A stretch of DNA of 44,843 bases, taken from Candidatus Cloacimonadota bacterium (GTDB taxonomy: Bacteria > Cloacimonadota > Cloacimonadia > Cloacimonadales > TCS61). The notes under the pieces are model-generated. The model was not told the origin of the DNA. It saw only the letters and a list, made by a program, of their open reading frames with translations, and searched no databases. Positions 6,814 to 29,179 of the stretch are shown here, in pieces. The stretch covers positions 1 to 44,843 of the forward strand of contig JAUXFF010000006.1 in the NCBI GenBank assembly GCA_030620155.1, written 5' to 3'. Made by a program: the position numbers and the translations under genes. The stretch's first letter is position 1. Every line of letters starts with the position of its first letter.

Positions 6814-8615
6814 TGCCGGGAAAAACCTTCGTAGAAAAAATCCTCAACGCAGAAAAAGGCGCTATAGTATTCCGAAAACCGGATATCGTGTTAACCCATG
6901 ATAACACAGCAAGTATTAAAAATACATTCAAGAAAATGGGGGGAGAAAAAGTTTCTGACCCAGATCAACTTTTAGTTGTTCTTGACCATAATGCTCCACC
7001 TACAAGCTCAAAATTAGCAAACCAGTATCAGACAATCCGTGATTTTGTGAATGAACAGGGAATAAAGAAATTCTATGATGTGGGAGAAGGTATCTGTCAC
7101 CAGATTATGAGCTATCATGCCAAACCCGGAATGATTATCGTGGGAAGCGATAGTCATACTTGCACAGCGGGAGCTTTTAATACACTTGCTGCAGGTATAG
7201 ATAGAACCGAATCCGCAGGAATCTGGAAAAGAGGAGAAACCTGGTTCCGCGTTCCGGAATCGATGAAAATCACCTTGAAAGGCAAGCTTAATAAAGGTGT
7301 TTACGCTAAAGATATTTCACTCTGGATCATAGGAAAAATCGGTTCTACCGGTGCGAACTATATGAGTATAGAATTTCACGGAGATGGCGTGAAAAATCTT
7401 TCCATTTCTGAACGAATGACTCTGGCTAATCTGGCTTCTGAAATGGGAGCAAAAAACGCAGTATTCCCTGCTGACGAAATCTTGAGAAATTTTTTAAATA
7501 AAGCTTCCGAATTTTCAAAAACTTCGGAATTTTTAAATGGAATCTGGGCTGATGAAGACGCAATTTATGAAAAAGAGATTGAAATAAATCTGGAAGAGAT
7601 ATTCCCACTTGTTGCAGCTCCTCATCACGTAGATAATGTAAAAGCTGTTTCAGAGGTTCAGGGAACAAAACTGAATCAGGGACTCATCGGAACCTGTACA
7701 AACGGAAGATTGGAAGACATCCGAATCGCTGCTGAAATTCTGGATGGGGAAAAAGTAGCAGACGGATTCCAGCTGCTTATAATTCCCGCATCCAAAGAAA
7801 TATATCTGAAAATGATCGAGGAAGGTCTAACTACTAAACTAATGAATGCCGGAGCAAGTGTTCTGGCAGTTTCCTGCGGACCCTGTCTGGGTACAGGTCA
7901 GGGAATTCCTGCAGATGGATATACCGTAATCTCCACAGCAAATCGTAATTTCAAAGGTAGAATGGGAAATAAGGAAGCAAGCATTTATCTTGCATCTCCG
8001 GCTTGCGTAGCACATTCTGCAATAAAAGGTGAAATTACAGATCCTCGCGGAATAGAAATGAACGATATATTTCCATACAAAAAAGAACAAAGCACTACTG
8101 TTGAAATAAAAAGCAGTGATAATAGAAGAATTAAAGCAACCTGGAATTATGCGGATGTTGACAATCTGAATACAGACCAGATGTTTGTCGGTAATCTTAC
8201 CTATCAAGTGCTCAGCTCTGATCCCGAAGCTATTATGCCGCACCTTTTCAAAGGTTTCGATGATAGTTTTTCTGAAAACGTCCAATCCGGTGATGTGATT
8301 GTTGCTGGTGAAAATTTCGGCTGCGGTAGCTCCCGCGAACATCCTGCTGTCGGGCTTTCTCACGCAGGTGTGAAAGCAGTTATCGTGAAATCAGTGAACA
8401 AGATTTTCTATCGTTCCTCAGTGAACCAGGGTCTTCCAATAATTGTAATGCCTGAAGTTGTGGATTATTACAAGGCAGGAGATAATGTGACAGTGGATTT
8501 AGAAAGCGGTATAATCAAAGTGAACGAAAAAGAGTTCAAATTCGCTCCACTACCAAAGGAACTGATGGCGATCTTTGCTGCTAAGGGTCTGGTGAATTGG
8601 ATAAAGGAGAATTAA
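6813..8615 (+). CDS. Single-chain aconitase-family hydro-lyase 2 (fused LeuC-like and LeuD-like parts)
   Basis: This 600-residue paralogue of the enzyme at 3217-5025 has the same fused architecture. Cluster ligands are C295 (GTCTNGR) and C355/C358 (SCGPC). The small-domain active-site loop is canonical, FGCGSSREHP (R508). The substrate loop reads VGNLTYQ (459-465), again without the YLRT arginine. VGSDSHTCTAGAFNTLA is the expected large-subunit motif. The low similarity to the first copy, and the different loops, suggest two different substrates rather than redundancy, for example a citrate/isocitrate enzyme and a second acid. The last 75 bases are duplicated at 9353-9427, behind the inserted toxin-antitoxin pair. 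Confidence 0.88.
   Translation: MPGKTFVEKILNAEKGAIVFRKPDIVLTHDNTASIKNTFKKMGGEKVSDPDQLLVVLDHNAPPTSSKLANQYQTIRDFVNEQGIKKFYDVGEGICHQIMSYHAKPGMIIVGSDSHTCTAGAFNTLAAGIDRTESAGIWKRGETWFRVPESMKITLKGKLNKGVYAKDISLWIIGKIGSTGANYMSIEFHGDGVKNLSISERMTLANLASEMGAKNAVFPADEILRNFLNKASEFSKTSEFLNGIWADEDAIYEKEIEINLEEIFPLVAAPHHVDNVKAVSEVQGTKLNQGLIGTCTNGRLEDIRIAAEILDGEKVADGFQLLIIPASKEIYLKMIEEGLTTKLMNAGASVLAVSCGPCLGTGQGIPADGYTVISTANRNFKGRMGNKEASIYLASPACVAHSAIKGEITDPRGIEMNDIFPYKKEQSTTVEIKSSDNRRIKATWNYADVDNLNTDQMFVGNLTYQVLSSDPEAIMPHLFKGFDDSFSENVQSGDVIVAGENFGCGSSREHPAVGLSHAGVKAVIVKSVNKIFYRSSVNQGLPIIVMPEVVDYYKAGDNVTVDLESGIIKVNEKEFKFAPLPKELMAIFAAKGLVNWIKEN
8541..8615 (+). repeat. Gene-end repeat, copy 1 (3' end of aconitase-family gene 2)
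   Basis: These 75 bases encode FAPLPKELMAIFAAKGLVNW plus IKEN and the stop. They match 9353-9427 with about seven differences counted by eye. The two copies bracket the MntA/HepT genes. Confidence 0.9.
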
Positions 8616-8719
8616 GCGATCACGGATTAACTCGGATCAAACAGATGAGAAAATTACTCAAAATAAGATTAAATTGACAAAATGGAAATAGCTTTTTTTT
8701 TCATTTGCAGGAGAGTATT

Positions 8720-9013
8720 ATGAAAGATATAAAAACAGTAAAGTTAATATTATCGAACAATAAAGCAGATTTAAGTAGAAAATATTTTGTTAGCAATTTG
8801 GGACTTTTTGGTTCATATGTAAGAGGAGATCAATCAGAAAATAGTGACATCGATGCATTGGTCGAATTCAGCAAACCTATCGGACTGTTTCATTTTCTCA
8901 GACTTCAGGAATATTTAGAAAAAATATTAGGAGAGAAAGTTGATCTTGTAAGTAAAAATGCTTTGAAAAAAAGAATTGCCGAACACATTCTAAAAGAAGT
9001 GGTTTATATATGA
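8720..9013 (+). CDS. mntA: MntA-like minimal nucleotidyltransferase (antitoxin)
   Basis: This 97-residue MNT-fold protein has the catalytic motif GSYVRGDQSENSDID (G31-S32, D43, D45). In characterised MNT/HEPN pairs the nucleotidyltransferase AMPylates a tyrosine of the HEPN toxin and silences it; all residues needed appear present. The ATG at 8720 was preferred over an in-frame TTG 15 bases upstream because GCAGGAGAG lies at the right distance. The stop overlaps the next start as ATGA. The pair sits in a segment bounded by two copies of the aconitase gene end, so it was almost certainly acquired. Confidence 0.88.
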   Translation: MKDIKTVKLILSNNKADLSRKYFVSNLGLFGSYVRGDQSENSDIDALVEFSKPIGLFHFLRLQEYLEKILGEKVDLVSKNALKKRIAEHILKEVVYI

Positions 9014-9345
9014 TTCAAAGAACTTATCAGGTTTATTTTGAAGATATTTTAGAAGCAATTAATGATATTTCTAACTTTATTAAGAACCTTTCTTTTAACG
9101 AGTTTACAGAAGATAAGAAAACCATAAATGCTGTGATCAGGTCTTTGGAAATAATTGGAGAGGCATCTAAAAAAGTATCACAGGAAATTAAAGAAAATAA
9201 TAAAAATATTCCCTGGAAAGAAATGGCTGGAATGAGAGATAAAATGATACATGGATACTTTGATTTAGATTTAGTCACAATCTGGGAAACAGTTAATAAA
9301 GATATTCCGCCTTTGAAACCATTGTTTGAAAATCTGTTGAAATAG
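9010..9345 (+). CDS. hepT: HepT-like HEPN ribonuclease (toxin)
   Basis: This 111-residue all-helical HEPN protein has the RX4HXY signature MRDKMIHGYF (R76, H81, Y83). The Arg and His form the RNase site, and Y83 is the residue modified by the partner in known systems. It is translationally coupled to the upstream MNT gene through ATGA. The duplicated gene end begins eight bases after its stop, so the insert boundary lies directly behind the toxin. Confidence 0.88.
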   Translation: MIQRTYQVYFEDILEAINDISNFIKNLSFNEFTEDKKTINAVIRSLEIIGEASKKVSQEIKENNKNIPWKEMAGMRDKMIHGYFDLDLVTIWETVNKDIPPLKPLFENLLK

Positions 9346-9352
9346 ATACACA

Positions 9353-9427
9353 TTTGCTCCGCTAACAAAGGAACTGATGGCGATCTTTGCTGCTAAGGGT
9401 TTGGTGAATTGGATTAAGAATAATTAA
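9353..9427 (+). repeat. Gene-end repeat, copy 2 (orphan 3' end of aconitase-family gene 2)
   Basis: The copy is still readable as FAPLTKELMAIFAAKGLVNW plus IKNN and a stop, but has no gene attached. The differences from 8541-8615 leave the encoded residues nearly unchanged (Pro to Thr, Glu to Asn). That suggests both copies were under coding selection before the insertion joined them. Confidence 0.9.
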
Positions 9428-9655
9428 CCATTCGACTTCACTCCGTTTCCGTCTTCGCTGCTCTTCGGTCTTCACTCTGTTTCAGTCTCCACTACGTTAC
9501 GCCCCGACAAGACGCCCCGACAAGACGCCGCGATAAATCGAAGGGACAAGTCGAAAACACTGAGGAACACCTGGCGAGGGTCGAGATACCGGAGAATTAA
9601 TAGCTCAACTGTCTTCTCCGACAACTGCCTGATATAAAAAGTAGGTGTGTAAATT
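9428..9655. repeat. GC-rich repeat debris between the toxin-antitoxin insert and the next gene
   Basis: Unlike its surroundings this stretch is GC-rich and repetitive. It has runs of CTTCACTCCGTTTC/CTTCACTCTGTTTC and a 13-base unit (GCCCCGACAAGAC) repeated in tandem at about 9501-9526, then a degenerate third unit. No credible gene is seen in it on either strand. Confidence 0.6.
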
Positions 9656-10243
9656 ATGAAAGAGAAATTTGAATTTAATCGTTTTTCATTTACTGTTTTT
9701 TTTCTGAATTCTGCAATCCTTGGAATTGGCTTTACCTTTGTTATTTTTTTTATCATGTTTGGAATTTCTGTTATTATGTGGCAGTTTTACGGCAAAAATA
9801 TCGAACAAAGCGGAGCACTTGCAATGGGTCTTTCTGCCATCGTGATATTTATTATTTTCCTGATTCTAAGAATAATTATAAGCCGTGTTAAAAAAAATTA
9901 TCAGAATTTTAAATCTGCCTGGCTCTTTTTGGATGACAACAGTCTTTCTTACATTAACAGGAAACAACAGGAATATTCATTCCAATGGAAAGAAATTACA
10001 GAATTCAAGATTTCTCTCCTTAAAAACGGGTTAAGAGCAAAAGTTAAAACTTCATCTTTCAGCTTTATTTTCTCTAATTATGAGATCGATCCAATGCCTA
10101 TTGAATTTAAAAATGCAATCAAGTCAAACAATTTCAATTGCCCGAATTTTTATAAAATTTGTGATATCTTCCATGATAAAGCAACAAGTGCAATAATTAA
10201 AGACAAAGTTATGAATAGATTTAAAAAATATGCAGCAAAATAA
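9656..10243 (+). CDS. Membrane protein with two N-terminal helices and a PH-like cytosolic domain
   Basis: This 195-residue protein is not assigned to a named family. Two long hydrophobic helices (about 13-42 and 54-76) are followed by a basic stretch and a domain (about 85-140) in which WLFLDDNSLSY and QWKEITEFKI recall bacterial PH-like/YcxB-type membrane modules. The C-terminus is lysine-rich. There is a weak ribosome-binding site (GTAGGTG). It probably stands alone. Confidence 0.6.
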   Translation: MKEKFEFNRFSFTVFFLNSAILGIGFTFVIFFIMFGISVIMWQFYGKNIEQSGALAMGLSAIVIFIIFLILRIIISRVKKNYQNFKSAWLFLDDNSLSYINRKQQEYSFQWKEITEFKISLLKNGLRAKVKTSSFSFIFSNYEIDPMPIEFKNAIKSNNFNCPNFYKICDIFHDKATSAIIKDKVMNRFKKYAAK

Positions 10244-10279
10244 TTATTTATGTTTTCCATATCTAAATATAATAAAAAA

Positions 10280-10333
10280 TTACGTATTTTTCTTATCAGT
10301 AATTTCAAGGAAGCTGAATTCCGACCGGACAGA
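10280..10333 (+). pseudogene. Remnant of a second DUF4143-type ATPase gene
   Basis: In one frame this stretch encodes LRIFLISNFKEAEFRPDR, nearly the same as LRNFLISNFNEAEFRPDR inside the intact ATPase gene 1.1 kb downstream (11367-11420). DNA identity is about 85 percent by eye. No start or flanking homologous sequence is left. It is either the scar of a tandem duplication or part of a displaced allele. Confidence 0.75.
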
Positions 10334-10394
10334 AGAATAAAGACTATTTCGCTGAGTATCTGCCATAAATATTGAACCATTTTTATAATATGGA

Positions 10395-10419
10395 GTAAAA
10401 ATAGTTTGACTATTTTTAC
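10395..10419. promoter_or_regulatory. Perfect 10-bp inverted repeat upstream of the ATPase gene
   Basis: GTAAAAATAG and CTATTTTTAC flank the five-base spacer TTTGA, 33 bases before the ATPase start. It contains a TTGACT that could act as a -35 box. It could be an operator or a weak terminator; no protein partner can be named. Confidence 0.5.
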
Positions 10420-10451
10420 GGTTATCTATTTTTTGTTTCGAGGTATTAACT

Positions 10452-11696
10452 ATGAAATACTATCCAAGAATAATAGAAAAAACATTACTTGAATATTTAA
10501 ATCGACCGGAAGCTATTTTCATTCTAGGAGCACGTCAAGTTGGAAAGACCTCTTTAATGAAACACATAATGGCAGAAATTGATAATAACCGCTATCTTTA
10601 TATTGATCTTGAAAATTCAATAAATCTCTCAATTTTCACCAAAGGAGTAAATGAATTTCTTAATTATCTTAAATATCAGAAGTTATCTAAATCGGAACTG
10701 AATTACATTTTTATAGATGAAATTCAATACGCTCCAGATTTTTCCAGCCTGATAAAATATATAGTTGATCATTATTCAGATAGATATAAGTTAATTCTCA
10801 GTGGTTCTTCATCTTTGCAAATTCGAAATAAATTTAAAGAATCTTTAGTTGGGCGTAAAATTGTTTTTGAACTTTATCCGTTAAACTTTACAGAATTTTG
10901 TTTATTCAGGAACGAATCAAAAATAGCTGATATTCTTCAGCAACATAATCCTTTAAAACTAAATGAAGACCATTTACGATTTGAAAAAGATAAAACATTA
11001 CATTTACTTAAAGAGTATTTAGTTTACGGAGGATTTCCAAAAGTTGTTCTGCAAGAAAATAAAACTAGTAAAGTTAGGATTCTGCAGGATATTGTCCAAT
11101 CTTATGTAATGAAGGATATTAGGTATCTTTTTCACCTGGAAAAGATATCACAATTCAATCATCTAATAAAATTATTGGCAGTTTTTATAGGAAAAGAAAT
11201 CAATATTTCACAATTAGCTACAGAAACGAAATTACATAAACAGACACTGAAACATTACATAAGTGCTCTGGAATCGAGCTATATTATCAAAATGATTCAA
11301 CCTTTTCACAAAAACCTTTCTTCAGAATTAAGAAAAACACCAAAATGCTATTTTATAGATAACGGATTGCGAAATTTTCTTATCAGTAATTTCAACGAAG
11401 CTGAATTCAGACCTGACAGGGGTGAATTGCTGGAAAACTTCATATTCACACAGCTTCTGATTAAATCCGATCCACTCACAAAAATAAATTACTGGCGAAC
11501 AAAATCAAAACAGGAAATAGATTTTATCTTGCAAAAGGAAAATCAATTATTTGCTTTAGAAGTAAAATGGAGCGATGGCTCATTTCAAAATTTAAGGAAA
11601 TTTGTTCAGATATATCCTGATTCTTCAACTTTTATGATCAGCATGTTGCGAAACTTTGAGAAGGAAAAAAATTATTTACCTGTGTATTGGATTTAA
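10452..11696 (+). CDS. AAA_14/DUF4143-type ATPase
   Basis: This 414-residue P-loop ATPase has Walker A GARQVGKTS near residue 30 and Walker B YIFIDEIQ near 95. The sensor-like LILSGSSSLQI and the ELYPLNFTEF segment are typical of the family, followed by a DUF4143 C-terminal part with a PD-(D/E)XK-like pattern (EIDFILQKENQLFALEVKW, about 355-375). Members are common, often transferred, and of unknown cellular role. A fragment of a second copy lies just upstream. The start follows TTTCGAGGTATTAACT. It is transcribed alone behind the inverted repeat at 10395. Confidence 0.88.
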   Translation: MKYYPRIIEKTLLEYLNRPEAIFILGARQVGKTSLMKHIMAEIDNNRYLYIDLENSINLSIFTKGVNEFLNYLKYQKLSKSELNYIFIDEIQYAPDFSSLIKYIVDHYSDRYKLILSGSSSLQIRNKFKESLVGRKIVFELYPLNFTEFCLFRNESKIADILQQHNPLKLNEDHLRFEKDKTLHLLKEYLVYGGFPKVVLQENKTSKVRILQDIVQSYVMKDIRYLFHLEKISQFNHLIKLLAVFIGKEINISQLATETKLHKQTLKHYISALESSYIIKMIQPFHKNLSSELRKTPKCYFIDNGLRNFLISNFNEAEFRPDRGELLENFIFTQLLIKSDPLTKINYWRTKSKQEIDFILQKENQLFALEVKWSDGSFQNLRKFVQIYPDSSTFMISMLRNFEKEKNYLPVYWI

Positions 11697-11899
11697 AATA
11701 TTATATATAGGAAATTCTTTTTTCTCTAACATCAATACATTGTAATATTGTTCTCGTTCTGTCCTGCAGAAAAAAAATTAATAAATTCATAAAAGGAAAA
11801 AATAAAAAAAGGAATAAAATCAGAATGACAAAAGTAGTTGTCCTGGGTGCAGTTATAGTGGAAAGCTATCCGGTGATATAATATAGGAGAATATAATTA

Positions 11900-12112
11900 A
11901 TGGTTGGAATTATCGGAGGTTTTGCAGGAATATTGATAATAATTCTTTTCTGGATGAATCGGCAGATCGATATTAAATGGAAGATCATTCTAACAGTAAT
12001 TGCGATTATTTTTCGATTTGCGCTTCCCGGAATTTGGTCAATTATTGGAGCGGTTTTAGTTTTGATAATTATGTTTTTAATGCTAAGATGGTACGGTGTC
12101 AAAATACGGTGA
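11900..12112 (+). CDS. Small two-helix membrane protein
   Basis: This 70-residue protein is almost entirely hydrophobic. Helix 1 covers about residues 3-18 (IIGGFAGILIIILFW), a short polar loop RQIDIKW follows, and a second hydrophobic region covers about 28-64. A TAGGAG site at proper distance supports translation. It resembles small inner-membrane proteins of the superinfection-immunity/YqaE style only loosely. It is not assigned to a family. Confidence 0.55.
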   Translation: MVGIIGGFAGILIIILFWMNRQIDIKWKIILTVIAIIFRFALPGIWSIIGAVLVLIIMFLMLRWYGVKIR

Positions 12113-12165
12113 AATTAAACTGAAGCATTGTTAGGATTGATTATAATACTGAATAAGGAGAAAAA

Positions 12166-13419
12166 ATGAAGCGAATAGTTTTGTTTATCATTCTGCTTTG
12201 TGTTACACGGGTCTATTCAGATACAACGATTGAAAATTCAGAAGAAAAACTTAAAATTTTTATCGATTATCCTGCCGGTGATTTGAATTATTTCCGTGAA
12301 GAGATATCTAGTGTGGATTTTGTCCGTTTTATGCAGGAAGCAGATGTTTACATTCTATTTTCAAAGCAGAGTACCGGAAGTGGAGGGCAAAAATACACAG
12401 TTGATTTTACTGGACAGAAACGTTTCGAGGGAATCAACGAATCGTTAACATTTATTATGGGAAAAGATGATACCGATGATGATGAAAGACGAAAAAGCGT
12501 GCACACGATCAAACTCGGGCTAATAAGATATTTTTCTCGAACAAACTTTGCCGATAAAATTATGATAACTTTTCCAATAGAACAAAAAAAGGAAGAGATC
12601 ATAGATAGATGGAACAACTGGGTATTCGAGTTCAATGTAAATTGCTTCCTGAATGGACAGAAAAGTTCGAACTCATTAAATCTCTGGGGTTCTATCTTGG
12701 CTAAAAGAGTAACGAAGGAAATTAAAACCGAATTTGGTTTTTTTGGTAGCTATAATCAAGATAAATTCGATTATGGTGACGAGGTTATTGAAAGTTCTTC
12801 TGACAGTAAAAGTTTCAACGCTTCTGTGATAAAATCTATTAATGCTCACTGGTCTTATGGGCTTTGGTCATATATTTATGATTCCTCTTATAGTAATATA
12901 GATTTAGGCGTAGGAATTTCACCGGGAATAGAATATAATATTTTTCCATATTCGGAATCGAACAGAAAGCAATTACGTTTTCAGTACAAACTTCATCCGG
13001 GATTTGCAGACTACAGCGAAGAGACCATTTATGAAAAATTATCTGAAAAAACCCTGAAACATTCCTTCACCACCGAGATCGAATATATCCAATCCTGGGG
13101 ATCTGTGAGTGCAAGCATTATTGCTTCTCAATATCTAATCATCGATGACATGATTTTGGATAGTTATGAAAAAAACAAATTAACTTTGCACAGTAATGTT
13201 TCATGGAGGATATTTAAAGGACTTTCTTTTGATTTATGGGGATATGTATCACGGATACATGACCAATTATCAATTCCAGCTGGGGTTGTTTCCACACAAG
13301 ATCTGCTTTTGAAGAGAAAAGAACTTGAAACTCAATATTCTTATTTTGCTTCTATCGGACTCAGCTATTCGTTTGGCTCCATTTATAATAATATTGTAAA
13401 TCCAAGATTTGGTGATTAG
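12166..13419 (+). CDS. Predicted outer-membrane beta-barrel protein
   Basis: This 417-residue protein has a signal peptide (MKRIVLFIILLCVTRVYS). An N-terminal periplasmic domain of about 100 residues contains DLNYFREEISSVDFVRF and ADVYILFSKQSTGSGGQ, a pattern I recall from uncharacterised Bacteroidetes/Chlorobi outer-membrane proteins. The rest is alternating amphipathic strands with many aromatic residues and ends YSYFASIGLSYSFGSIYNN, as expected for a barrel. The start follows AAGGAGAAAAA. Function is unknown. It has no operon partner other than the small membrane gene 53 bases upstream. Confidence 0.75.
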   Translation: MKRIVLFIILLCVTRVYSDTTIENSEEKLKIFIDYPAGDLNYFREEISSVDFVRFMQEADVYILFSKQSTGSGGQKYTVDFTGQKRFEGINESLTFIMGKDDTDDDERRKSVHTIKLGLIRYFSRTNFADKIMITFPIEQKKEEIIDRWNNWVFEFNVNCFLNGQKSSNSLNLWGSILAKRVTKEIKTEFGFFGSYNQDKFDYGDEVIESSSDSKSFNASVIKSINAHWSYGLWSYIYDSSYSNIDLGVGISPGIEYNIFPYSESNRKQLRFQYKLHPGFADYSEETIYEKLSEKTLKHSFTTEIEYIQSWGSVSASIIASQYLIIDDMILDSYEKNKLTLHSNVSWRIFKGLSFDLWGYVSRIHDQLSIPAGVVSTQDLLLKRKELETQYSYFASIGLSYSFGSIYNNIVNPRFGD

Positions 13420-13902
13420 CAGGACTTAATATTAGAGTGAATTTTATTCCCAAAATGGCTTTATTCTTTCCTTAAACTGCGCCATAAGCCAAGCCTGAAA
13501 CCAAGCATCGGGGTAAGCCGAGAACACCGAGATTCACCAAGCTAATTTAAATAATGTAAATATGAAGCACTACTTAATCCTCAACTAATGAGTTCTGCAA
13601 AATTTAGGAAAATTAACCTCTGCCAACAATGAATTTCATGGGGTTAAAGGGGAAGCTAAAAGAAACACTGAAACCCAATATTATTTATCTGTTATATCCC
13701 AATGTCCCTTTATTATTAAAGATAAACGAAAGAAAAAAGCTATTTTATCTACATTATATGAATTATTCTTCCTAATTTCAGCAATAATATTTGACTATTT
13801 AATCAATAAACAAACTTTATCACTTGCCTAATAGATATGATATGTTATTATGATATAGCAATATTAAAAAGTAAGCATGAATAAAAAATTGGGAAGGTAA
13901 AA
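13420..13902. other. 483-base intergenic stretch with an unexplained open frame
   Basis: No gene with a start codon is seen. A 79-codon frame (13592-13828, stop at 13829) is open on the plus strand without ATG, GTG or TTG near its beginning. Its translation (for example NEFHGVKGEAKRNTETQYYL) looks protein-like, so it may be a decayed gene. A short GC-richer patch at 13480-13530 looks like repeat debris. Confidence 0.35.
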
Positions 13903-14526
13903 ATGAAAAAATATTTTTTATTAATCTGTTTGTTAACGCTGATCGGTCTTAATATTTCTGCTGAAGAATTTTCTGAATCACCCGATACAGTTAAGACCGA
14001 CAGTTTAATATCCATGAAGATCCAGAGAGTATTTGAAGATATTGAAGATGAATATAAGTTGGCTAAAATATTTTTTACATCAAAACAAAGGAAACAATAT
14101 AAATCTCAGGAAAAAGATGCAGATAAAAGATTATTTTTAGATACTTTCTGGGCAGTAAATGACCCTAATCCCGTAACTCCTGAAAATGAATTTATACTGA
14201 TTTTAAGAAATAGAATTGAATATTGTAATAATCATTTCAGTCATTTTAAGGACGGATGGAAAACTGATATGGGTAGAATATATCTTAAGCACGGTCAACC
14301 TTATGAAGTAACAAAAGATAGAACCGATATTCTTGGTAAACACGGAGAAAAGGAATATCAGATATGGAAGTATCGGGTTTATGAAAATATGACCTTTATT
14401 TTTATTGATTTACAAACTCACGGAGATTTCAGACTGATCTACAGTGATAATGACGACCGAGAAACATCTTATCCTAATTGGCTCGAATATATGGGTAGAA
14501 ATTTTGACCCAGGCATTTTATACTAA
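13903..14526 (+). CDS. GWxTD-domain protein
   Basis: This 207-residue exported protein has a signal peptide (about 1-20) and the family motif KDGWKTDMGRIYLKHGQPYE near residues 118-137. Upstream of it is the conserved FLDTFWAVNDPNPVTPENEF. GWxTD proteins are found in the FCB group and Acidobacteria-like phyla as secreted or periplasmic proteins of unknown function, often longer than this. It is 54 bases upstream of lemA, so the four genes to 16728 may form one transcription unit. The start follows GGGAAGGTAAAA. Confidence 0.85.
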   Translation: MKKYFLLICLLTLIGLNISAEEFSESPDTVKTDSLISMKIQRVFEDIEDEYKLAKIFFTSKQRKQYKSQEKDADKRLFLDTFWAVNDPNPVTPENEFILILRNRIEYCNNHFSHFKDGWKTDMGRIYLKHGQPYEVTKDRTDILGKHGEKEYQIWKYRVYENMTFIFIDLQTHGDFRLIYSDNDDRETSYPNWLEYMGRNFDPGILY

Positions 14527-14580
14527 AGAAAATAAAAAAACAGAGAACTTTTAAAAAAAATATTTATTGGAGGATTAAAA

Positions 14581-15192
14581 ATGAATAAAAAATTCCTGAT
14601 CGGATGCTCACTTTTTGTTGGAATAATTATCATTATTGCAATAATTTTATATTTATATGGAATTGGAATCTACAACAAAATGGTTTTTCTGGAGGAAGGT
14701 GTTAAAGAGAAATGGAGTCAGGTAGAAAATGTTTATCAAAGAAGATATGACCTGATTCCCAACCTGGTGGAAACTGTAAAAGGTTATGCAGAACATGAAA
14801 AGGAAACTTTTACACAGGTTACTGAAGCCCGGGCAAAAGCAGGAGGAACATTCAATATTTCAGAACAGGTTTTGAACGATCCGGCGATGTTTGAGAAATT
14901 TCAACAGGCTCAAAATACCCTGGGTGGTGCATTGCAAAGATTACTGGTGGTAATGGAAAAATATCCTGAACTTAAAGCTAATCAGAATTTCCTGGTTTTA
15001 CAGAACCAGCTGGAAGGTACTGAAAACAGAATTGCTGTAGAAAGGAAAAGATTCAATGTCGCAGCCCGGGGATACAATACATACATAAAACAGTTTCCTA
15101 AAGTTATCTTAGCTAATATGTTCGGATTCAAAGAAAAAATCTATTTCAAATCAACCGAAGGAGCCGAAACTGCTCCTAAAGTAGAATTCTAA
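14581..15192 (+). CDS. lemA: LemA-family membrane protein
   Basis: This 203-residue protein has one N-terminal transmembrane helix (about 5-28) and a long helical bundle. The family segment VYQRRYDLIPNLVETVKGYA is followed by HEKETFTQVTEARAKA. LemA proteins place an alpha-helical domain outside the inner membrane; their role is unsettled. The strong association with TPM-domain proteins directly downstream is the usual gene order and suggests a shared envelope function. The start follows TTGGAGGATTAAAA. Confidence 0.92.
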   Translation: MNKKFLIGCSLFVGIIIIIAIILYLYGIGIYNKMVFLEEGVKEKWSQVENVYQRRYDLIPNLVETVKGYAEHEKETFTQVTEARAKAGGTFNISEQVLNDPAMFEKFQQAQNTLGGALQRLLVVMEKYPELKANQNFLVLQNQLEGTENRIAVERKRFNVAARGYNTYIKQFPKVILANMFGFKEKIYFKSTEGAETAPKVEF

Positions 15193-15310
15193 TTTCACTG
15201 AGGTTCCAGGGTAAGCTGATTTTACTAAACCAAAAGAGGAATAACAGAACCTGGATCCTGTTCTTTATATTATCCTCATTTTGGGAAAATTAAAGGAGTT
15301 AGTAAATCTT

Positions 15311-15985: not shown

Positions 15986-15987
15986 TT

Positions 15988-16728: not shown

Positions 16729-16835
16729 ACTGCCCATCCTTAATATAAAACCACAAACCTGAAATTAAAAATAAAATAAGAAAATTATTTATAATATGTC
16801 TTTATTATTATATCTTCTTGTAAAAAATGAAAAAT

Positions 16836-17102
16836 TTAAGCTATTTCAAAATTTTCGATATTTTCTCCTTCTATATAAAGGTATTTTGGTTTTTCCGGCG
16901 ATCCATTCTTTTTGATTTTATCACTGTCACTATCTTCAACTAATCTCCATATCTCCCATGATTCACCTTCACCATCAATACAGAAAGTTATTCTCTTCTT
17001 AACAAAATCATCAATGATGAATTGAATTGAATTTAACGGTTCCGCTTTAGTAACCGGCACACAGAACTTCTTCCTCTCATAGAAGTACTTCTCTTTTTTC
17101 AT
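16836..17102 (-). CDS. Small hypothetical protein
   Basis: This 88-residue soluble protein is not recognised. It starts MKKEKYFYERKKFCVPV and contains a beta-rich stretch (QFIIDDFVKKRITFCIDG) and acidic patches near the end. A perfect GGAGGA four bases before the ATG supports expression and fixes the start. An ATG 15 bases further upstream lacks such a site. It stands alone on the minus strand between the TPM cluster and rodA. Confidence 0.6.
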   Translation of the reverse strand: MKKEKYFYERKKFCVPVTKAEPLNSIQFIIDDFVKKRITFCIDGEGESWEIWRLVEDSDSDKIKKNGSPEKPKYLYIEGENIENFEIA

Positions 17103-17239
17103 TTTTCCTCCAGTCATTTTGTTAATCTATAAATATTATAACATTCAACATTATCAATCCAGTATTTTCCCTGACTATCGTTTGAAAAAAACATTCCCAG
17201 GAAAAAACAAAAATCATAAGTAATCCCTTTTTCATTTTC

Positions 17240-18457: not shown

Positions 18458-18460
18458 CTG

Positions 18461-20215: not shown

Positions 20216-20693
20216 TTATTGTAACTTTAATTTTACTAACTGATATAAAAAAATACACCCCTAATACTGATATCACAGAATTATATAAAAAAGCAAACAA
20301 AATATTTGAAAATGAAGAAAAGATAACCTGATTTGAAAATAAATAATATAAGAAAAATATAAAATAATGAATGAAATTAAGGATAAGTATACAAAAAAAC
20401 ACAACTGAAAGCCGCTCTTTATTAATCGTGTGATGAAATCTGTAAACCAAATAAGACATAATAATAAATGAAATAGTATTCAAACCCAGAAGTGTAGGAT
20501 AAGTTATATCAAAGGCAAGTCCTAAAAAGAAAATTATTGGTAAGGAAACACCTGTATTAGTTTTTAGGCTCAGAAAAATAACGTACGGAATTAAAAAGTT
20601 TGGTAATACCCCGTATATCGTAAACTTGTAAGCTATTAACAATTGCCAATAAATTAAAAAAATTGCCACAATCACGTACTTGATAGATCTCAT
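20208..20693 (-). CDS. mreD: MreD, rod-shape membrane protein
   Basis: This roughly 161-residue protein of four to five hydrophobic helices begins MRSIKYVIVAIFLIYW. The ATG at 20693 was chosen because it overlaps the previous stop as ATGA, the usual coupled arrangement. An ATG 21 bases upstream is also in frame. YGVLPNFLIPYVIFLSLKT matches the MreD pattern. It is identified as much by position as by sequence. Confidence 0.85.
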   Translation of the reverse strand: MRSIKYVIVAIFLIYWQLLIAYKFTIYGVLPNFLIPYVIFLSLKTNTGVSLPIIFFLGLAFDITYPTLLGLNTISFIIMSYLVYRFHHTINKERLSVVFFCILILNFIHYFIFFLYYLFSNQVIFSSFSNILFAFLYNSVISVLGVYFFISVSKIKVTINV

Positions 20694-21367
20694 TTTAATT
20701 CTCTGATTAAACATACAGGTGTGAGTTCATCGCCCTGCCCTTGGGGATTGTCCTTCATTACCAGTTCCATGAATTTTTTATCTATCCCTGTACTTCCACC
20801 AATCATCCAGCATCCGCCAATATCATTTATATCCATTACAGCAGTTTCATTCCCCAAAAAATCTTTTATTCTCTGAGCTTCCTTTTCCGGTTTTTTCGGT
20901 CCCTTTATAACACAATTTTCATAGGGGGGAACAGGTGAAGTTGTGGCAGCATCAATCAGGGCAGATTGTTTACCCGCAATTCTATAAAAATCACCTTTTC
21001 TGCCAAACAGTTTCCCTAAACCACCTACAAAAGCAGCAAATAAAATTCGGAACCTCCCTACTTCATCAATTGCACACTGCATACTCGTAGGAGAACGTAG
21101 TCCGATACCATATTTAACATTAGAAACAAATCGCCAGAGGAATTTTGCGAGAAATCCAACTTTTATTTTTTCAACAGGGATGGCTCTTCCTTGAGTAATA
21201 GCAAGAGGACTTTCACTTATAGTAATAATATCATCTTTCTTTATGATACTTTTTGTATACTTTTTTACAATTTCTAACATATCATCTTCCGGAGTTAGAA
21301 TTTTTGTCTTTACCGGAATCCTTGTGTACAATTTTCCCTTAATCTCTATCACCGAATTCTTTCTCAT
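20690..21367 (-). CDS. CofE-like (F420-0:gamma-glutamyl ligase-related) domain protein within the mre operon
   Basis: This roughly 225-residue protein contains ISESPLAITQGRAIP, FYRIAGKQSALIDAATTSP, PPYENCVIKGP and DNPQGQGDELTPVCLIRE. I associate these with the coenzyme F420 gamma-glutamyl ligase superfamily found in many bacteria that do not make F420. It overlaps mreC by 29 bases and mreD by four, so it belongs to the shape operon. An F420 role is unlikely without other F420 genes. A glutamyl-ligase activity on a cell-wall or cofactor substrate would be an inference. A GTG at codon 6 is an alternative start. Confidence 0.72.
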   Translation of the reverse strand: MRKNSVIEIKGKLYTRIPVKTKILTPEDDMLEIVKKYTKSIIKKDDIITISESPLAITQGRAIPVEKIKVGFLAKFLWRFVSNVKYGIGLRSPTSMQCAIDEVGRFRILFAAFVGGLGKLFGRKGDFYRIAGKQSALIDAATTSPVPPYENCVIKGPKKPEKEAQRIKDFLGNETAVMDINDIGGCWMIGGSTGIDKKFMELVMKDNPQGQGDELTPVCLIRELK

Positions 21368-22127
21368 AGTTTTTATCTTTTTCGTATTTTAAAACAATAA
21401 CGTGGTCTAAACATGCAGGATTAGTAAATCCGGATATCTTTGCATCCATATGAATTTTATCTGAAGATTCTATAAGCCTGGTAACTACACCCACAGGAAA
21501 ATCTCTTGGAAATATCGTTGAAATATTAGAAGTAACAACAACATCTCCCAGGTTAATATCTGAGCCCAGTTTAATTAGTGTCATATAGGTATTACCATAA
21601 ATATCGGATTCCAGCATACCCTGTAGATTATTCTTCTCCAACATTACACCTAATTTAAATTTCGCATGAGTATATGGTAAAACAACAGCATAATTGGGAG
21701 ATACCGACAGTATCTTTCCAATGATTCCTTCAGTAGAAATTACCGGATAATTTATTTTGATATCATCTATGCTACCCTTATTTAAAATTAAATTCCTTTC
21801 TTCAAAATTTCCACTGTATCCTATTATATCAGCCAGACAAAAGTCATAGTGCCCAAAAATATAATCTACCTGAATTTTTTCAAACATATCCAACTGATTT
21901 TCTAATTTATTGATATATATGGTTTTGTTTGCTATTTCTTTCACTAATAGTTGATTTTCCTCTTTAATCTTAAATAAGTTTTCAATAATGTTAATAGAAG
22001 AAATAAGAGGTAAGTATAATGTTTTACTTAAAAATCGTGCTTTTTGTAATCTTTGTTCAGTATTCCCTAAATATAGTATTAATGCAAGAGTCAAAAATAC
22101 CGCATAGAGAATATTTTGTCTCGACAT
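21339..22127 (-). CDS. mreC: MreC, rod-shape-determining scaffold protein
   Basis: This 262-residue protein has one N-terminal membrane helix (about 7-22) and a coiled coil (about 50-85, ENQLLVKEIANKTIYINKLE). A C-terminal double beta-barrel follows, with GIIGKILSVSPNYAVVLPYT and GDVVVTSNISTIFPRDFPVG. It links MreB to the periplasmic synthases. Its start overlaps the mreB stop (TAATG). Confidence 0.95.
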   Translation of the reverse strand: MSRQNILYAVFLTLALILYLGNTEQRLQKARFLSKTLYLPLISSINIIENLFKIKEENQLLVKEIANKTIYINKLENQLDMFEKIQVDYIFGHYDFCLADIIGYSGNFEERNLILNKGSIDDIKINYPVISTEGIIGKILSVSPNYAVVLPYTHAKFKLGVMLEKNNLQGMLESDIYGNTYMTLIKLGSDINLGDVVVTSNISTIFPRDFPVGVVTRLIESSDKIHMDAKISGFTNPACLDHVIVLKYEKDKNYEKEFGDRD

Positions 22128-23164
22128 TAATCTTCAATTTTCTTTATTAATACTTTCTTGAATTGTTCCAGATTATCCAGAACATGACCACTACCTTTTA
22201 AAACGCAAATAAGTGGATCTGGCATAAGATGAACAGGCAGATCTACTGCTTCCTGAATTTTTTTATCCAATCTCTTCAATTGAGCGGCACCACCTGTAAG
22301 AATAATTCCCCTTTCAGCAATATCAGCCGCCAGCTCAGGTGCAGTCTTTTCAAATAATCTCTTTATAGCATCGATCATTGTGCTGACAGTTTCGGAAAGT
22401 GCTTCCCTTATTTCTTCAGATGTAACTTCAACCGTTATAGGATAACCGGTGATAATATCGCGACCTCGAACTTCCATCGTTAATTCATTTTCCAATGGAT
22501 ACGCAGAACCTATCTCTATTTTTATCTTTTCTGCAGTAAGTGTTCCAATAAAAATATTATTCCTTTTCCTTAAATAATTTATAATTGCTTCATCCATCTT
22601 GTCTCCACCAACACGAATGGAAGTGTGCACAACTATATGAAACAAAGAAATTATAGCAATTTCAGTTGTTCCCCCTCCAATATCCATAACCAGATTCCCC
22701 TGAGGTTTATGAATAGGGAGATCAGCTCCAATAGCAGCAGCAATTGGTTCAGAAACGAGGTGTACTTCACGAGCTCCAGCATGTAAGGCGCTATCCCTGA
22801 CCGCACGTTTTTCAACTTCAGTAATTCCAGAGGGTACGCAAACCAAAACTCTTGGTTTTATAAGAAGTCGCTTTTTTTGAGCTCTGAAAATTAAATTTCT
22901 CAGCATTAGTTCAGTAACCTGGAAATCAGCAATTACTCCATCTTTAAGTGGTTTTATTATTCTTACTTCGTCTGGGTTTTTCCCTAACATTTCTTTAGCG
23001 TCTTCTCCTATAGCAATAATCTTCTTACTGTCATTAGATAATGCCACTACTGACGGTTCGTCAATAACAATACCGACACCCTTTTTATACACCAAGGTAT
23101 TTGCTGTGCCTAAATCTATTGCAATATCATTGGAAAATAAATCTGCTAATCCCTTTAAAAACAT
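22127..23164 (-). CDS. mreB: MreB, actin-like cytoskeletal protein
   Basis: This 345-residue ATPase has IAIDLGTANTLVY (phosphate 1), DIGGGTTEIAIISL (phosphate 2) and ILTGGAAQLKRLD (adenosine motif). The N-terminal FLKGLADLFSND is the amphipathic membrane-binding start. Translation begins at the ATG four bases behind GGAGGAT; a longer frame starting 21 bases upstream lacks a site. First gene of the operon mreB-mreC-cofE-like-mreD-mrdA-rodA. Confidence 0.97.
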   Translation of the reverse strand: MFLKGLADLFSNDIAIDLGTANTLVYKKGVGIVIDEPSVVALSNDSKKIIAIGEDAKEMLGKNPDEVRIIKPLKDGVIADFQVTELMLRNLIFRAQKKRLLIKPRVLVCVPSGITEVEKRAVRDSALHAGAREVHLVSEPIAAAIGADLPIHKPQGNLVMDIGGGTTEIAIISLFHIVVHTSIRVGGDKMDEAIINYLRKRNNIFIGTLTAEKIKIEIGSAYPLENELTMEVRGRDIITGYPITVEVTSEEIREALSETVSTMIDAIKRLFEKTAPELAADIAERGIILTGGAAQLKRLDKKIQEAVDLPVHLMPDPLICVLKGSGHVLDNLEQFKKVLIKKIED

Positions 23165-23612
23165 ATATCCTCCGAATATGGGCAATTCATTACTAAATGA
23201 TTCATACTAATTCAAAAGAAGCTTTCATCTGTCAAGAGGTTTATGGCATTATTTTCAAAGCAAAAAACAAATAGACATAAAACTGAGAAAAATAAATTTA
23301 TACAATAATAAATCCATAACATAAAATATGATTTAATAATAATATTTGATGAGAAATTACATTAACATTATCATCTACTAACATAAATAAGGGATAAGTA
23401 ATTTTAAAAAGCATGTGCATACAAGTTGGCATAAGAGATGAAAAAAATCCTAGATTTGTTTTCTAATAATCAGATTATCTGTAGAAAAAGTCCTTCTACA
23501 ATAGTAAGTAAATCTCCATAAAGAAAAATTTCTTGCAAGAAAACCTGTATATGTTAGGAAAGACTGAGAATATTTAAATATAAAATAAATTTAAAAAATA
23601 AGGGTGTATTTT
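23165..23612. promoter_or_regulatory. Divergent intergenic region between mreB and ruvB
   Basis: No gene is seen in these 448 AT-rich bases. On the minus strand TTGACA (23235 to 23230) is a candidate -35 for mreB, but no good -10 follows at 17 bases. No repeat of the families seen elsewhere is present. It presumably holds both promoters. Confidence 0.4.
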
Positions 23613-24653
23613 ATGTTAGAAAGAATATCAGATCCTGAAAAAATGCCTGAAGAAAAAGAATTTGATCGTGCCTTAAGACCCAAGACACTGGATGATTTTG
23701 TTGGACAGGAACAAATTAAAGAGATTCTCGATATTTCCATAAAAGCTGCAAAATTAAGGAATGAGCCTTTAGATCATATTTTGTTTTATGGACCACCCGG
23801 TCTGGGTAAAACAACATTGGCTTATATTATTGCAAATGAACTGAATACAGCAATAAAGGTTAGCTCAGGACCGGTTCTGGAAAAAGCTCCGGAACTGGCT
23901 GGGATACTTACTAACCTGCAAAGAACAGATGTGTTTTTCATTGATGAAATACATCGTTTGAATCATGTCGTAGAAGAATATATGTATCCAGCAATAGAAG
24001 TTTTCGAGATGGAGATAATTATTGATAGTGGTCCCAGTGCACGTTCCTTAAAAATAGACATTGAACCTTTTACATTAATTGGAGCCACTACCAGAGCCGG
24101 ATTACTTACATCTCCTTTAAGATCCAGATTCGGTCTTATGCTTCGTCTTGATTACTATGATGTTAATAGCATTAAAAAGATTGTTAACCGTTCAGCAGGA
24201 TTATTAAAAATACCTATAGAATCTAAAGGAACCGATGAAATTGCTCGTAGAAGCCGGGGAACTCCCAGGGTGGCAAACCGTCTTTTACGTCGTGTTCGAG
24301 ATTATGCCCAAATAAAAGGTGATGGCGTCATCACAAAAGAAATTGCTGTTAAAGCTCTCAAAATGCTCAACGTGGATTTTGCCGGTTTGGATGAAATGGA
24401 TAAAAGAATCTTGAAAACCATTATGGAAAATTATAATGGCGGTCCCGTTGGACTTAAAACACTTTCTGTAGCTGTAGGGGAAGATCCAGGTACAGTTGAA
24501 GAAATTTATGAACCCTATTTAATCCAGCAGGGGTTTTTAGATAGAACATCTCAGGGAAGAAAGGTTACTTTGAAATCCTATAAACACTTCGGTATTACAC
24601 CTGTTAAAGAACAAATGGGTATTTTTGAATACGATATGGATGATACAAATTAA
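23613..24653 (+). CDS. ruvB: RuvB, Holliday-junction branch-migration helicase
   Basis: This 346-residue AAA+ ATPase has [19 protein letters not shown], Walker [10 protein letters not shown], Walker [10 protein letters not shown], the sensor GATTRAG and a C-terminal winged helix ([12 protein letters not shown]). It forms the motor that drives RuvA-bound junctions. The ATG at 23613 was chosen over an in-frame GTG nine bases upstream, which overlaps the AAGGG site. It is followed after nine bases by rarA; ruvA and ruvC are not in the window. Confidence 0.96.
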
Positions 24654-24662
24654 GAATATAAA

Positions 24663-25985
24663 ATGACTAATCAATTGTCTCTATTTGATAAAAAAATAAA
24701 ACCAACTAACATACCTTTAGCTGAGAAAATAAGACCTAAATCCTTAGATGAAATCAGGGGTCAGGAGAAATTATTGAAAGAAGGTTCTCAGCTCAGGACT
24801 ATGATAAAAAAAGACAATTATAGTTCTTTTATCTTATGGGGTCCTCCGGGTACTGGTAAAACCACCATCGCTCGTATTATCAAAAGAAAATCCCTAAACA
24901 GGTTTATTGCCTTCAGTGCTGTTCTGGCCAGTATTAAAGATGTAAAAAACATAATGAAAGAAGCTGAATTCACCCTGGAAACACAGAATAAAAGTACGAT
25001 TTTATTTATTGATGAAATTCACCGTTTTAACAAATCTCAACAGGATGCCTTCCTTCCATACGTGGAATCAGGAGCAATTATCCTAATCGGGGCAACTACT
25101 GAAAATCCGTCTTTTGAAATAATTCCCCCACTTCTTTCTCGCTGCCATGTCTTCGTATTGGAACAACTTTCAAATAAAAATTTAGAAAAAATATTAAAAC
25201 AAGCTGTTGAAAAAACAGGTAAAAATCACAATTTTGATAAAGACTGTATTTCTTACCTGGCTGCACAAAGTGGTGGTGATGCCAGGAAAGCTTTAAATTA
25301 CCTGGAAAGCATTTTTAATAATATCTCCGAATCCCAAAAAGTTGATGTGAAAACTGTCTCCAAAATACTTTCAAAAAAAGCAATGTTCTATGACAAAGAC
25401 AGGGAAGAACATTACAATGTAATCTCAGCTCTCCATAAATCTTTGAGAGGAAGTGATCCTCAAGCAGGTCTCTATTGGCTGGCAAGGATGTTGGAAGCAG
25501 GAGAGAATCCTCTTTATATTGCCCGAAGGCTTGTTCGTTTTGCTTCCGAAGATGTGGGACTTGCAGACCCCAATGCTTTAGTTCAAGCTGTTGCAGCCAG
25601 AGATGCAGTTCACTTTCTGGGAATGCTTGAAGCAAATGTTCATCTTGCTCAATTAGTAGTTTACCTGGCAACTGCACCAAAAAGTAATTCCCTGGAAACA
25701 GCATACAATAAAGCCTCAAAAGACGCACAAAAAACCAGCCATCTCGGTGTTCCAATGCATATTCGAAATGCACCTACAAAACTTATGAAAGACCTGGATT
25801 ACGGAAAAGATTATAAATATTCCCATGATTATGAAAATGCTTATTCTTTTCAGAAATATTTTCCCAACAAAATGAAAGAAAAAATTTATTACAAACCTTC
25901 AAGATTCGGATTTGAAAAAGAAATTAAGAAACGTCTGGATTGGTGGAATAAACTGAAGGAAAAGCAGGAGAAGAGCGATAAATGA
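24663..25985 (+). CDS. rarA: RarA (MgsA), replication-associated AAA+ recombination protein
   Basis: This 440-residue protein has [20 protein letters not shown], Walker [10 protein letters not shown], Walker [20 protein letters not shown] and [10 protein letters not shown]. The C-terminal tetramerisation part ([40 protein letters not shown]) is present. RarA acts at stalled forks. The first residues, [11 protein letters not shown], contain a textbook sliding-clamp-binding pentapeptide (QLSLF). The last 128 bases before the final codons recur at 27476-27603, behind a two-gene insert. Confidence 0.95.
25843..25970 (+). repeat. Gene-end repeat of rarA, copy 1
   Basis: This part of the rarA 3' end ([20 protein letters not shown] onward) matches 27476-27603 with about five differences by eye. 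The two copies flank the genes at 26110-27372. Confidence 0.9.
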
Positions 25986-26109
25986 CAAATCTCTTGCCAA
26001 AATCTAGGTAAATTTAAAATATTGATCGTAATAAAATCAAACTAAAATATATTTTTTTATCTTCTACTTATAATTATTATGAAAATTGTGATTTAACAAA
26101 GGAGAAGGA

Positions 26110-26610
26110 ATGAAAAAATGTTATTTGCAGGTTATCTTTATATTTACCCTGTTGTTTGTTTCCATTCTGAATTTATCATCAGAAAAATCCATACCAACAG
26201 TAAAAATCACATTTGAATTGTTACCTTTGGCAATACAGGAAGAATTTCAAAAAGTCGCTGATGTTAACTCAATCACTGAAATTGAACTGGAAAAAGAGTA
26301 TGAGGGTATATCAGTTTATGAACTTGAAACTCAAAAAAATGGTACACAGGTGGTTTACATTTATTCCAATGATGGAACACTACTGGAAATTGAGAGAACA
26401 ATTCAATATGAAGAACTTCCTGAAATCTCCCGGAAAATGCTCGAAGAAAAATATCCAAATTTAGATATCAAAATGGTAGAATCTATACAGATCAACTTTT
26501 TTGAAGTTAAAGGTAAATTGGATGGTAAAACAATAGAGCTTAAAATTTTTAACGATGGTAACATCGAATTGGAAGAAGAAGATGAGGAAGAGGAAGAAGA
26601 AATTGATTAA
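26110..26610 (+). CDS. Exported PepSY-like protein with acidic tail
   Basis: This 166-residue protein has a signal peptide (MKKCYLQVIFIFTLLFVSILNLSS). It is followed by two PepSY-like units: LPLAIQEEFQKVADVNSITE with YIYSNDGTLLEIE, and LPEISRKMLEEKYPNLDIKM with KIFNDGNIELE. It ends in a strongly acidic run. Such modules are thought to bind or inhibit proteases or carry calcium; nothing specific can be said here. Twelve bases separate it from the lipoprotein gene downstream. Both lie inside the rarA gene-end repeats. Confidence 0.75.
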   Translation: MKKCYLQVIFIFTLLFVSILNLSSEKSIPTVKITFELLPLAIQEEFQKVADVNSITEIELEKEYEGISVYELETQKNGTQVVYIYSNDGTLLEIERTIQYEELPEISRKMLEEKYPNLDIKMVESIQINFFEVKGKLDGKTIELKIFNDGNIELEEEDEEEEEEID

Positions 26611-26622
26611 AAGGAGGAAGTT

Positions 26623-27372
26623 ATGAAATGCATAATAATATCAATAACTCTAATCGTCGGGTTCTTATTTATTATGGGTTGTTGTGAAGATAAAAAATGC
26701 CCGACCAGCCCTACAAATCCAAATGATCAGCCCTACAATATTACAATAGATCCTGCTGACTTTGAAGATACAAATATCACTGGTAATACATTCATGCCCT
26801 TAGTGCCTGGAACCACTTTTTTCTATGAAGGTGAAGATGAAGATGGCATTTTGGTTGAAGTAGAAGAACATATTACAGACTCGACTATAATAATTATGGG
26901 AGTAACCTGTATTGTGGTGGAAGCTAAAGAATATGAAGAAGGAGAATTAGTTGAAGATACAGACGATTGGTATGCCCAGGATCTGGATGGAAATATCTGG
27001 TACTTTGGAGAATATTCTGAGGAATTTGAAGATGGACAGGTCGTAAGTACGGAAGGCTCCTGGGAAGCAGGAGTTGATGGTGCTCTTCCCGGAATTATAA
27101 TGCTTGCTGATCCGATAGTAGGTATGTGGTACAGGCAGGAATATTATGAAGGTGAAGCTGAAGACTGTGCCCAGGTTTTAAGCTTGGATGAGACTGTTAC
27201 AGTTCCCTACGGAACTTATGATAATTGTCTTCAAACTGCTGAATGGAATCCTCTGGAACCTGGCATTGTTGAACATAAGTTTTATGCTGCAGGTGTTGGG
27301 CTTTTAAGAGCAGTTGCAGTAGAAGGAGAAACAGGGTTCGAAGATCTGGTTGCTATAACCACCGGTCCTTAA
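26623..27372 (+). CDS. Lipoprotein of unknown function
   Basis: This 249-residue protein has a lipoprotein signal (FLIVGFLFIMGCC-like lipobox, cysteine near residue 20). A proline/threonine linker leads into an acidic beta-rich domain containing NTFMPLVPGTTFFYEGED, WYAQDLDGNIWYFGEYSEE, GALPGIIMLADP and VPYGTYDNCLQT. I recall similar single-domain secreted proteins in several phyla, some next to PepSY genes, but no function. It probably forms an operon with the PepSY-like gene. It is the second cargo gene of the rarA-end insert. Confidence 0.7.
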   Translation: MKCIIISITLIVGFLFIMGCCEDKKCPTSPTNPNDQPYNITIDPADFEDTNITGNTFMPLVPGTTFFYEGEDEDGILVEVEEHITDSTIIIMGVTCIVVEAKEYEEGELVEDTDDWYAQDLDGNIWYFGEYSEEFEDGQVVSTEGSWEAGVDGALPGIIMLADPIVGMWYRQEYYEGEAEDCAQVLSLDETVTVPYGTYDNCLQTAEWNPLEPGIVEHKFYAAGVGLLRAVAVEGETGFEDLVAITTGP

Positions 27373-27397
27373 TAAATTACCACAAAACAAAATATGG

Positions 27398-27440
27398 GGA
27401 TGCAAGGTTCTGGATAATTTTCTTCCAAAACTTTGCATCC
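27398..27440 (+). terminator. Strong hairpin after the lipoprotein gene, probable terminator
   Basis: GGATGCAA (27398-27405) pairs with TTGCATCC (27433-27440). The stem extends inward through GTT.TGGA/TCCA.AAC. A T-rich tract follows at a short distance. Confidence 0.55.
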
Positions 27441-27475
27441 GATTCATTATTTACTCTTTTTAAAAAGAATATTTA

Positions 27476-27615
27476 ATTCTTTTCAGAAATATTTTCCCAA
27501 CAAAATGAAAGAAAAAATTTATTACAAACCTTCAAAATCCGGATTTGAAAAAGAAATCAAGAAACGTCTGGATTGGTGGAAGAAACTGAAGGAAGAGCAG
27601 GAAAACTCGTCCTAA
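27476..27615 (+). pseudogene. Orphan duplicate of the rarA 3' end
   Basis: It reads [20 protein letters not shown], then [20 protein letters not shown], then ENSS and a stop. It is collinear with the rarA C-terminus up to 27603 and then has its own ending. There is no start codon or upstream part. DNA identity to 25843-25970 is about 96 percent by eye, and most differences are silent or conservative. Confidence 0.88.
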
Positions 27616-29161: not shown

Positions 29162-29179
29162 AAAAAGCAGGGAATGATT

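Follow-up and report, generated by a model that had tools for sequence, protein, structure and literature searches.

The stretch analysed here, referred to as the window throughout, is the 44,843-bp contig JAUXFF010000006.1 (C208), one of 243 contigs in a 2.5-Mb metagenome-assembled genome (MAG) of a Candidatus Cloacimonadota bacterium. It carries two loci, A and B, at which an intact host gene is followed by two cargo genes and then by a displaced, diverged copy of the host gene's end. This arrangement was first described in an original prediction made from the letters alone, and it is confirmed by the direct repeats found at an aconitase-family gene (locus A) and at rarA (locus B). Locus A contains the following features.

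6813-8615, + strand: host gene A, an intact aconitase-family protein of 600 aa (PF00330, 5.6e-96; PF00694, 2.1e-16)
8526-8615, + strand: repeat unit A, intact copy, the gene 3′ end including the stop (90 bp, 88% to 9339-9427)
8616-8719, + strand: left flank of cassette A, whose sequence is common to relative G021 from GATTAAATTGACAAAATGG on
8720-9013, + strand: cargo A gene 1, predicted MNT nucleotidyltransferase, antitoxin-type (PF01909, 7.6e-15; PDC-S09, 1.3e-29)
9010-9345, + strand: cargo A gene 2, predicted HepT-like HEPN RNase, toxin-type (PF01934, 9.4e-30)
9339-9427, + strand: repeat unit A, displaced copy, which begins at the HepT stop; same junction in G021 and G034
14581-15192, + strand: LemA-like gene, which in relatives is the closer neighbour downstream of gene A

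Full-length orthologues of gene A in relatives share 69–88% identity. The two copies of unit A align over 90 bp at 88%, or over 79 bp at 90% without gaps, and the displaced copy keeps an open frame. The cargo genes are adjacent, overlap by 4 bp and both score over the Pfam cut-off, as expected of an MNT-HEPN (HepT/MntA) module, and cargo A is thus a predicted MNT-HepT toxin–antitoxin pair. The corresponding features of locus B are listed below.

24663-25985, + strand: host gene B, intact rarA/mgsA AAA+ ATPase (PF12002, 9.3e-69)
25843-25972, + strand: repeat unit B, intact copy (130 bp, 95% to 27476-27605)
26110-26610, + strand: cargo B gene 1, 166-aa secreted protein (sub-threshold PepSY_like match; 91% identity to a G059 counterpart located away from rarA)
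26623-27372, + strand: cargo B gene 2, 249-aa secreted protein (no Pfam family; relatives at other loci)
27476-27605, + strand: repeat unit B, displaced copy with its own stop and an open frame
29174-30235, + strand: hrcA, the ancestral downstream neighbour of rarA

Given the E-values of 1e-24 for unit A and 1e-54 for unit B, the two window repeats are not due to chance. The original prediction had described copies of 75–128 bases that comprise the last codons of the host gene. Diverged end copies are indeed present; the measured lengths are 79–90 bp and 130 bp, and the rarA unit ends about 13 bp short of the intact stop codon, with the displaced copy running into a tail of its own (...KEEQENSS, then stop), so that its predicted separate stop is borne out. 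Likewise as predicted, none of the four cargo proteins of the two loci matches an integrase or transposase family in Pfam, and no inverted repeats are present at the cargo ends of either locus.

Empty sites and direct repeats across the genome

Loci A and B are identified as insertions by relatives, also MAGs, that are without the inserts. The gap between rarA and hrcA measures 164 bp in G003, 185 bp in G011 and 384 bp in G009, compared with 3.2 kb in the window, and about 0.7 kb separates the aconitase gene from the LemA-like gene in G027. The interval from the displaced rarA end to hrcA also contains a PAP2 phosphatase gene (27829-28653), indicating that rarA and hrcA were separated by more than one event here. 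An empty target in a relative combined with a direct duplication flanking the insert was found at two further places. At the junction of up448 and a GGDEF gene (L239), a 192-aa gene is enclosed by a 74-bp, 96% duplication of the junction, and the gap is 22–23 bp in G003 and G008; this is the cleanest target duplication among the sites. The thiolase–rpiB gap, 9 bp in G009 and 137 bp in G032 and G034, holds one MNT-HEPN pair in G021. In the window's own MAG (G000) it is occupied by two such pairs and one more gene, and nested direct repeats with units of 53, 73 and 77 bp (L238 3258-6565, on G000:C210) make it a second stacked insertion site.

The original prediction considered what would follow if the process were frequent, and a scan of this one MAG showed that the two window cases are not alone. 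The scan covered 102 stretches with 699 genes (968 kb, 39% of the MAG) and returned 39 low-copy local direct repeats, comprising 18 paralogous coding pairs and 21 non-paralogous units; the same procedure found no inverted pair in the 968 kb. An unfiltered search for copies of gene ends had returned 29 genes with a copy downstream. Most of these matches were false, many being tandem paralogues or C-terminal sorting domains of secreted proteins, and for this reason only low-copy units not inside two genes were kept. Naive scans of this kind are dominated by L206 (G000:C45), a run of neighbouring genes with similar repeated 3′ ends. By a classification made partly by eye, the positions occupied by the 21 units include gene ends (aconitase, rarA, a CDP-alcohol-phosphatidyltransferase-like gene and rpiB), gene starts (among them the GGDEF gene of L239, a 396-aa gene at L095 and a 580-aa gene at L211), a gene junction (L238) and intergenic DNA (L240, L092). 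Since starts, junctions and intergenic DNA are used about equally often, gene ends are a subset of the sites. The predicted delivery of cargo to gene ends therefore stands as recurrent insertion, documented by the empty sites, but not as a preference for the ends. Loci of Cloacimonadota relatives, 344 kb in all, contain 18 direct repeats, about 10 of which are not at the aconitase site, and no inverted ones; a bacteroidote-labelled set gave 4 direct and 1 inverted in 755 kb, both sets having been picked around one gene and so being no random samples. Unit length is variable, from 41 to 247 bp.

The cargo is biased toward MNT and HEPN genes. Among the 89 small genes (100–140 aa) in the scanned part, six are flanked by repeats, and these are exactly the six that Pfam assigns to MNT/HEPN families (three MNT, two HepT-like and one HEPN, with motifs examined), which form four modules; none of the other 83 small genes is flanked. 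Leaving out the window module that prompted the search, three modules against 0 of 83 give about 1e-5 by our own calculation, a statistic that rests on observations not fully independent of one another. In a survey of HepT loci in this MAG and its relatives, 8 of 28 passed, and five were left once low-complexity or dispersed repeats were discounted (L264, L268 and L269). Further MNT/HEPN pairs lie inside repeats of 71 bp at 100% in G036 and of 136 bp in G013, and in G021 a pair in opposite orientation, one of these five loci, is found with a 108-bp repeat at the end of a histidine-kinase-like gene. A 343-aa cargo protein without a Pfam match is one that we read as SIR2-like by its sequence. 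No integrase match was obtained among the cargo proteins searched.

The aconitase gene end in relatives

The aconitase gene end is a recurrent and nested site. An MNT-HepT pair followed by an end copy of 86–90 bp is present in G000 and G021, and G034 and G009 contain a second cassette between the gene and MNT-HepT, made up of a helix-turn-helix protein with weak likeness to RmrA, a second open reading frame (ORF) and a 159-bp end copy. The order in G034 is gene, helix-turn-helix protein and 192-aa ORF, 159-bp end copy, MNT-HepT and 86-bp end copy. G031 carries a 191-aa ORF and an end copy that extends past the stop codon (247 bp at 75%), and G006 carries about 7 kb of cargo and a 54-bp end copy. 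Downstream of the aconitase gene in G020, a Fic protein, an HNH nuclease and a HamC-like protein lie inside a 127-bp direct repeat at 99% (L114 12354-15390, G020:C45), apparently a recent insertion. Relative to the stop, the displaced copies begin at −160 (G034, G009), −96 (G031), −90/−87 (G000, G021, G034) and −56 (G006), showing that there is no fixed attachment core at this gene end. Toxin–antitoxin cassettes that occur recurrently and nested at one gene end in several genera are new here. Fragments at contig ends (G007:C31, G030:C278 and G026:C13) were dropped, being host genes truncated by the end of the contig. In the window, the intergenic DNA at 9418-9500, 3′ of the displaced aconitase end, is a dispersed intergenic repeat that recurs in part on six further contigs of the MAG.

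Which of the two copies is native was addressed in G034 by comparison with its sister G032. Their aconitase genes differ at 11 of 400 positions (2.75%) between −600 and −200 and at 28 of 200 (14%) in the last 200 bp (p = 5e-7), and the displaced copy of G034 is 97% identical to the intact end of G032, with informative sites divided 18 to 2. The jump in mismatches together with the 97% displaced copy indicates that the intact gene end of G034 is foreign and that its native counterpart has been moved to the far side of the cargo. This intact gene with ~200 foreign bases at its end, and with the native end past the cargo, is the second new observation. The comparison of G009 with G021 points in the same direction more weakly (20 vs. 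6 sites, p = 0.05). In addition, the first 590 bp of the cargo are 100% identical in G032 and G034, compared with mostly 93% for gene bodies, suggesting a recent exchange between the two. A search for the native rarA copy in the window by comparison with 12 relatives led to no decision.

Proposed routes of insertion and spread

The sites are probably best explained by two steps, a primary insertion with long target duplication followed by homologous spread that uses the displaced copy as an arm. In the first step, a compact accessory module, often MNT-HEPN or of another defence type and without a recombinase of its own, would enter a site such as a gene edge and leave a direct target duplication of roughly 40–250 bp; where the duplication reaches the gene edge, the host gene would stay intact and an orphan end or start would remain. 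The architecture, the empty sites, the direct-only orientation, the variable unit length and the cargo bias are all observed marks of this step. Its chemistry may involve a fragment with one-sided homology that is either circularised and integrated by a single crossover or joined illegitimately. One-sided homology is the best documented route; donor homology was not seen at the rarA site. In the second step, the displaced end copy would act as the right homology arm and the gene body as the left arm, which would allow the cassette to enter any strain with the gene by homologous recombination, whatever sequence lies downstream. The newcomer would then adjoin the gene and push the native end outward, generating nested arrays. 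This step would explain why the newest cassette adjoins the gene and, for G034, why the native end is found past the cargo, and we infer that the displaced copy was the homology arm there. DNA uptake is plausible in the family, as ComEC is present in 30 of 40 family genomes. More tentatively, MNT-HEPN-like pairs may constitute a transposase-free mobile class, with target duplications of 50–150 bp, the gene edge as a private arm, cross-genus spread and stacking.

Several observations weigh against the two-step explanation. The MAG that contains the window gave no ComEC match, the scan covers 39% of that genome, and two further HepT modules in it (C79, C159) are without flanking repeats. In the relatives that carry it, cargo B is located away from rarA and has no flanking repeats within 1.5 kb: the pair occurs at sites without rarA in G059 and G006, the G059 match having 88% DNA identity and stopping no more than about 13 bp from the gene boundaries, and the second gene occurs alone in G009. 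The native and incoming copies in the window are indistinguishable, each being about equally far from all other copies. As for G034, the foreign tract begins about 40–60 bp upstream of the start of the displaced copy, and a simple circle with a single crossover does not by itself yield such a tract. G032 has the same cargo start after its native end, on a contig that ends before the far side, and a later conversion or exchange in G032 or G034 could mimic end replacement.

The original prediction had proposed homology-assisted capture, in which a donor fragment with the same gene and the cargo recombines in the shared gene and its far side is joined illegitimately within the recipient's gene. 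Such capture would produce an intact gene end that is foreign and a native end that is displaced, as is seen in G034 and less clearly in G009; the architecture has been reproduced in Escherichia coli with duplications of 109–950 bp (PMC3240628), a similar origin has been proposed for the effector–immunity arrays of Vibrio cholerae (PMC5361080), and ComEC is widespread in the family. However, the occurrence of cargo B at non-rarA sites leaves capture by homology to a donor rarA unproven at that locus. Moreover, the same kind of module is found at many unrelated targets, and a donor would still need a primary insertion; pure capture is thus rather unlikely. Capture by end joining at a break whose ends are long and staggered, both sides being filled in, would duplicate the target without homology and would account both for variable direct duplications at arbitrary sites and for cargo B at unrelated ones. 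However, Ku (PF02735) was found in 0 of 40 family genomes, so that end-joining would need another route, and the foreign ends in G034 would stay unexplained, which makes it a most improbable source of these sites.

In E. coli, prophage e14 at icd is an integrase element located at a gene 3′ end, with the native end displaced. Remnants of such islands that have lost the integrase would share with the present sites the restoration of the gene end by the incoming copy, the displaced native end seen in G034 and the nesting of insertions at one gene end. This origin is disfavoured and very unlikely: left boundaries vary at a single gene with no fixed crossover point, units occur equally at starts and junctions, and the cargos are mostly 0.7–2 kb with no integrase found among those searched. 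Ordinary tandem duplication of the gene end and cargo, with later deletion of the redundant part, was named alongside the original prediction as a competing explanation of the repeats. It would agree with the direct orientation of all pairs in the scan, where 18 of the 39 low-copy pairs are plain paralogue duplications, but it is likewise disfavoured, with hardly any probability left to it, by the relatives without cargo, the foreign intact end in G034 and the association with MNT/HEPN; no second cargo copy was seen.

Comparison with known systems

Insertion with long target duplication is reportedly the subject of Nobusato et al. 2000 (Gene 259:99) and Furuta et al. 2010 (NAR 38:2428). In Helicobacter pylori, restriction-modification genes insert with long, variable (~100 bp) target duplications (PMC3874152, PMC3031569, PMC1643837). 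The two cases share a module without a visible transposase, a long and variable direct duplication, addiction-type cargo and recognition by comparison of related genomes. The present sites likewise combine an empty target with a duplication of ~100 bp and variable length, and the window loci are free of transposase, integrase and terminal inverted repeats. The cargo and host differ: restriction-modification genes are inserted in H. pylori, whereas the Cloacimonadota cargo consists of MNT-HEPN pairs, further genes of defence type and some secreted ones that remain unclassified. Peculiar to the present sites are the divergence of the copies, the nesting of inserts at a single gene end and, in one genome, the replacement of the end.

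In E. coli, integration of a circularised fragment by a single crossover left 109–950 bp of the lacZ end duplicated next to the insert (PMC3240628). The gene-end duplication beside the insert is common to both cases, as is one-sided homology, which is proposed here; in contrast, homology-facilitated illegitimate recombination in its classical form is an insertion with deletion, and no donor homology was seen at the rarA site. Displaced orphan 3′ ends are also known from the type VI secretion effector–immunity arrays of V. cholerae and from rhs C-terminal displacement (PMC5361080). These arrays resemble the present ones in serial insertion by a conserved anchor, with older parts outward and orphan 3′ ends left behind, but their anchor is a toxin gene whose own 3′ end is exchanged, whereas here it is a housekeeping gene that is kept intact. 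Compared with islands of the e14/icd type, the present sites lack both an integrase and a fixed crossover point, and they also include gene starts and junctions. The finding thus resembles known insertion patterns, and the route itself is not a new category. The claim that it was undescribed fails in view of the long target duplications of restriction-modification genes and of one-sided homology in E. coli.

How small toxin–antitoxin and defence genes move between chromosomes without a recombinase is an old open question. The many examples in these genomes differ in age, the near-identical ones being fresh (71 bp at 100%, 127 bp at 99%) and the diverged ones old, which allows the primary event to be studied apart from the later spread. 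If the displaced copy is the homology arm, any conserved gene with such a cassette would become a cross-genus landing pad. For annotation, orphan gene ends or starts may be read as insertion marks.

Two other kinds of repeats were observed in the window. A 54-bp mid-gene piece (11366-11419) of an AAA/DUF4143 ATPase gene (10452-11696) is repeated upstream at 10279-10332 with 89% identity, and this copy is an orphan internal piece rather than a gene end. Repeated palindromic intergenic elements of the CCAAGCTGGGGCTTGG type are located at 1671-3178, between and around a 207-aa and a 178-aa gene.

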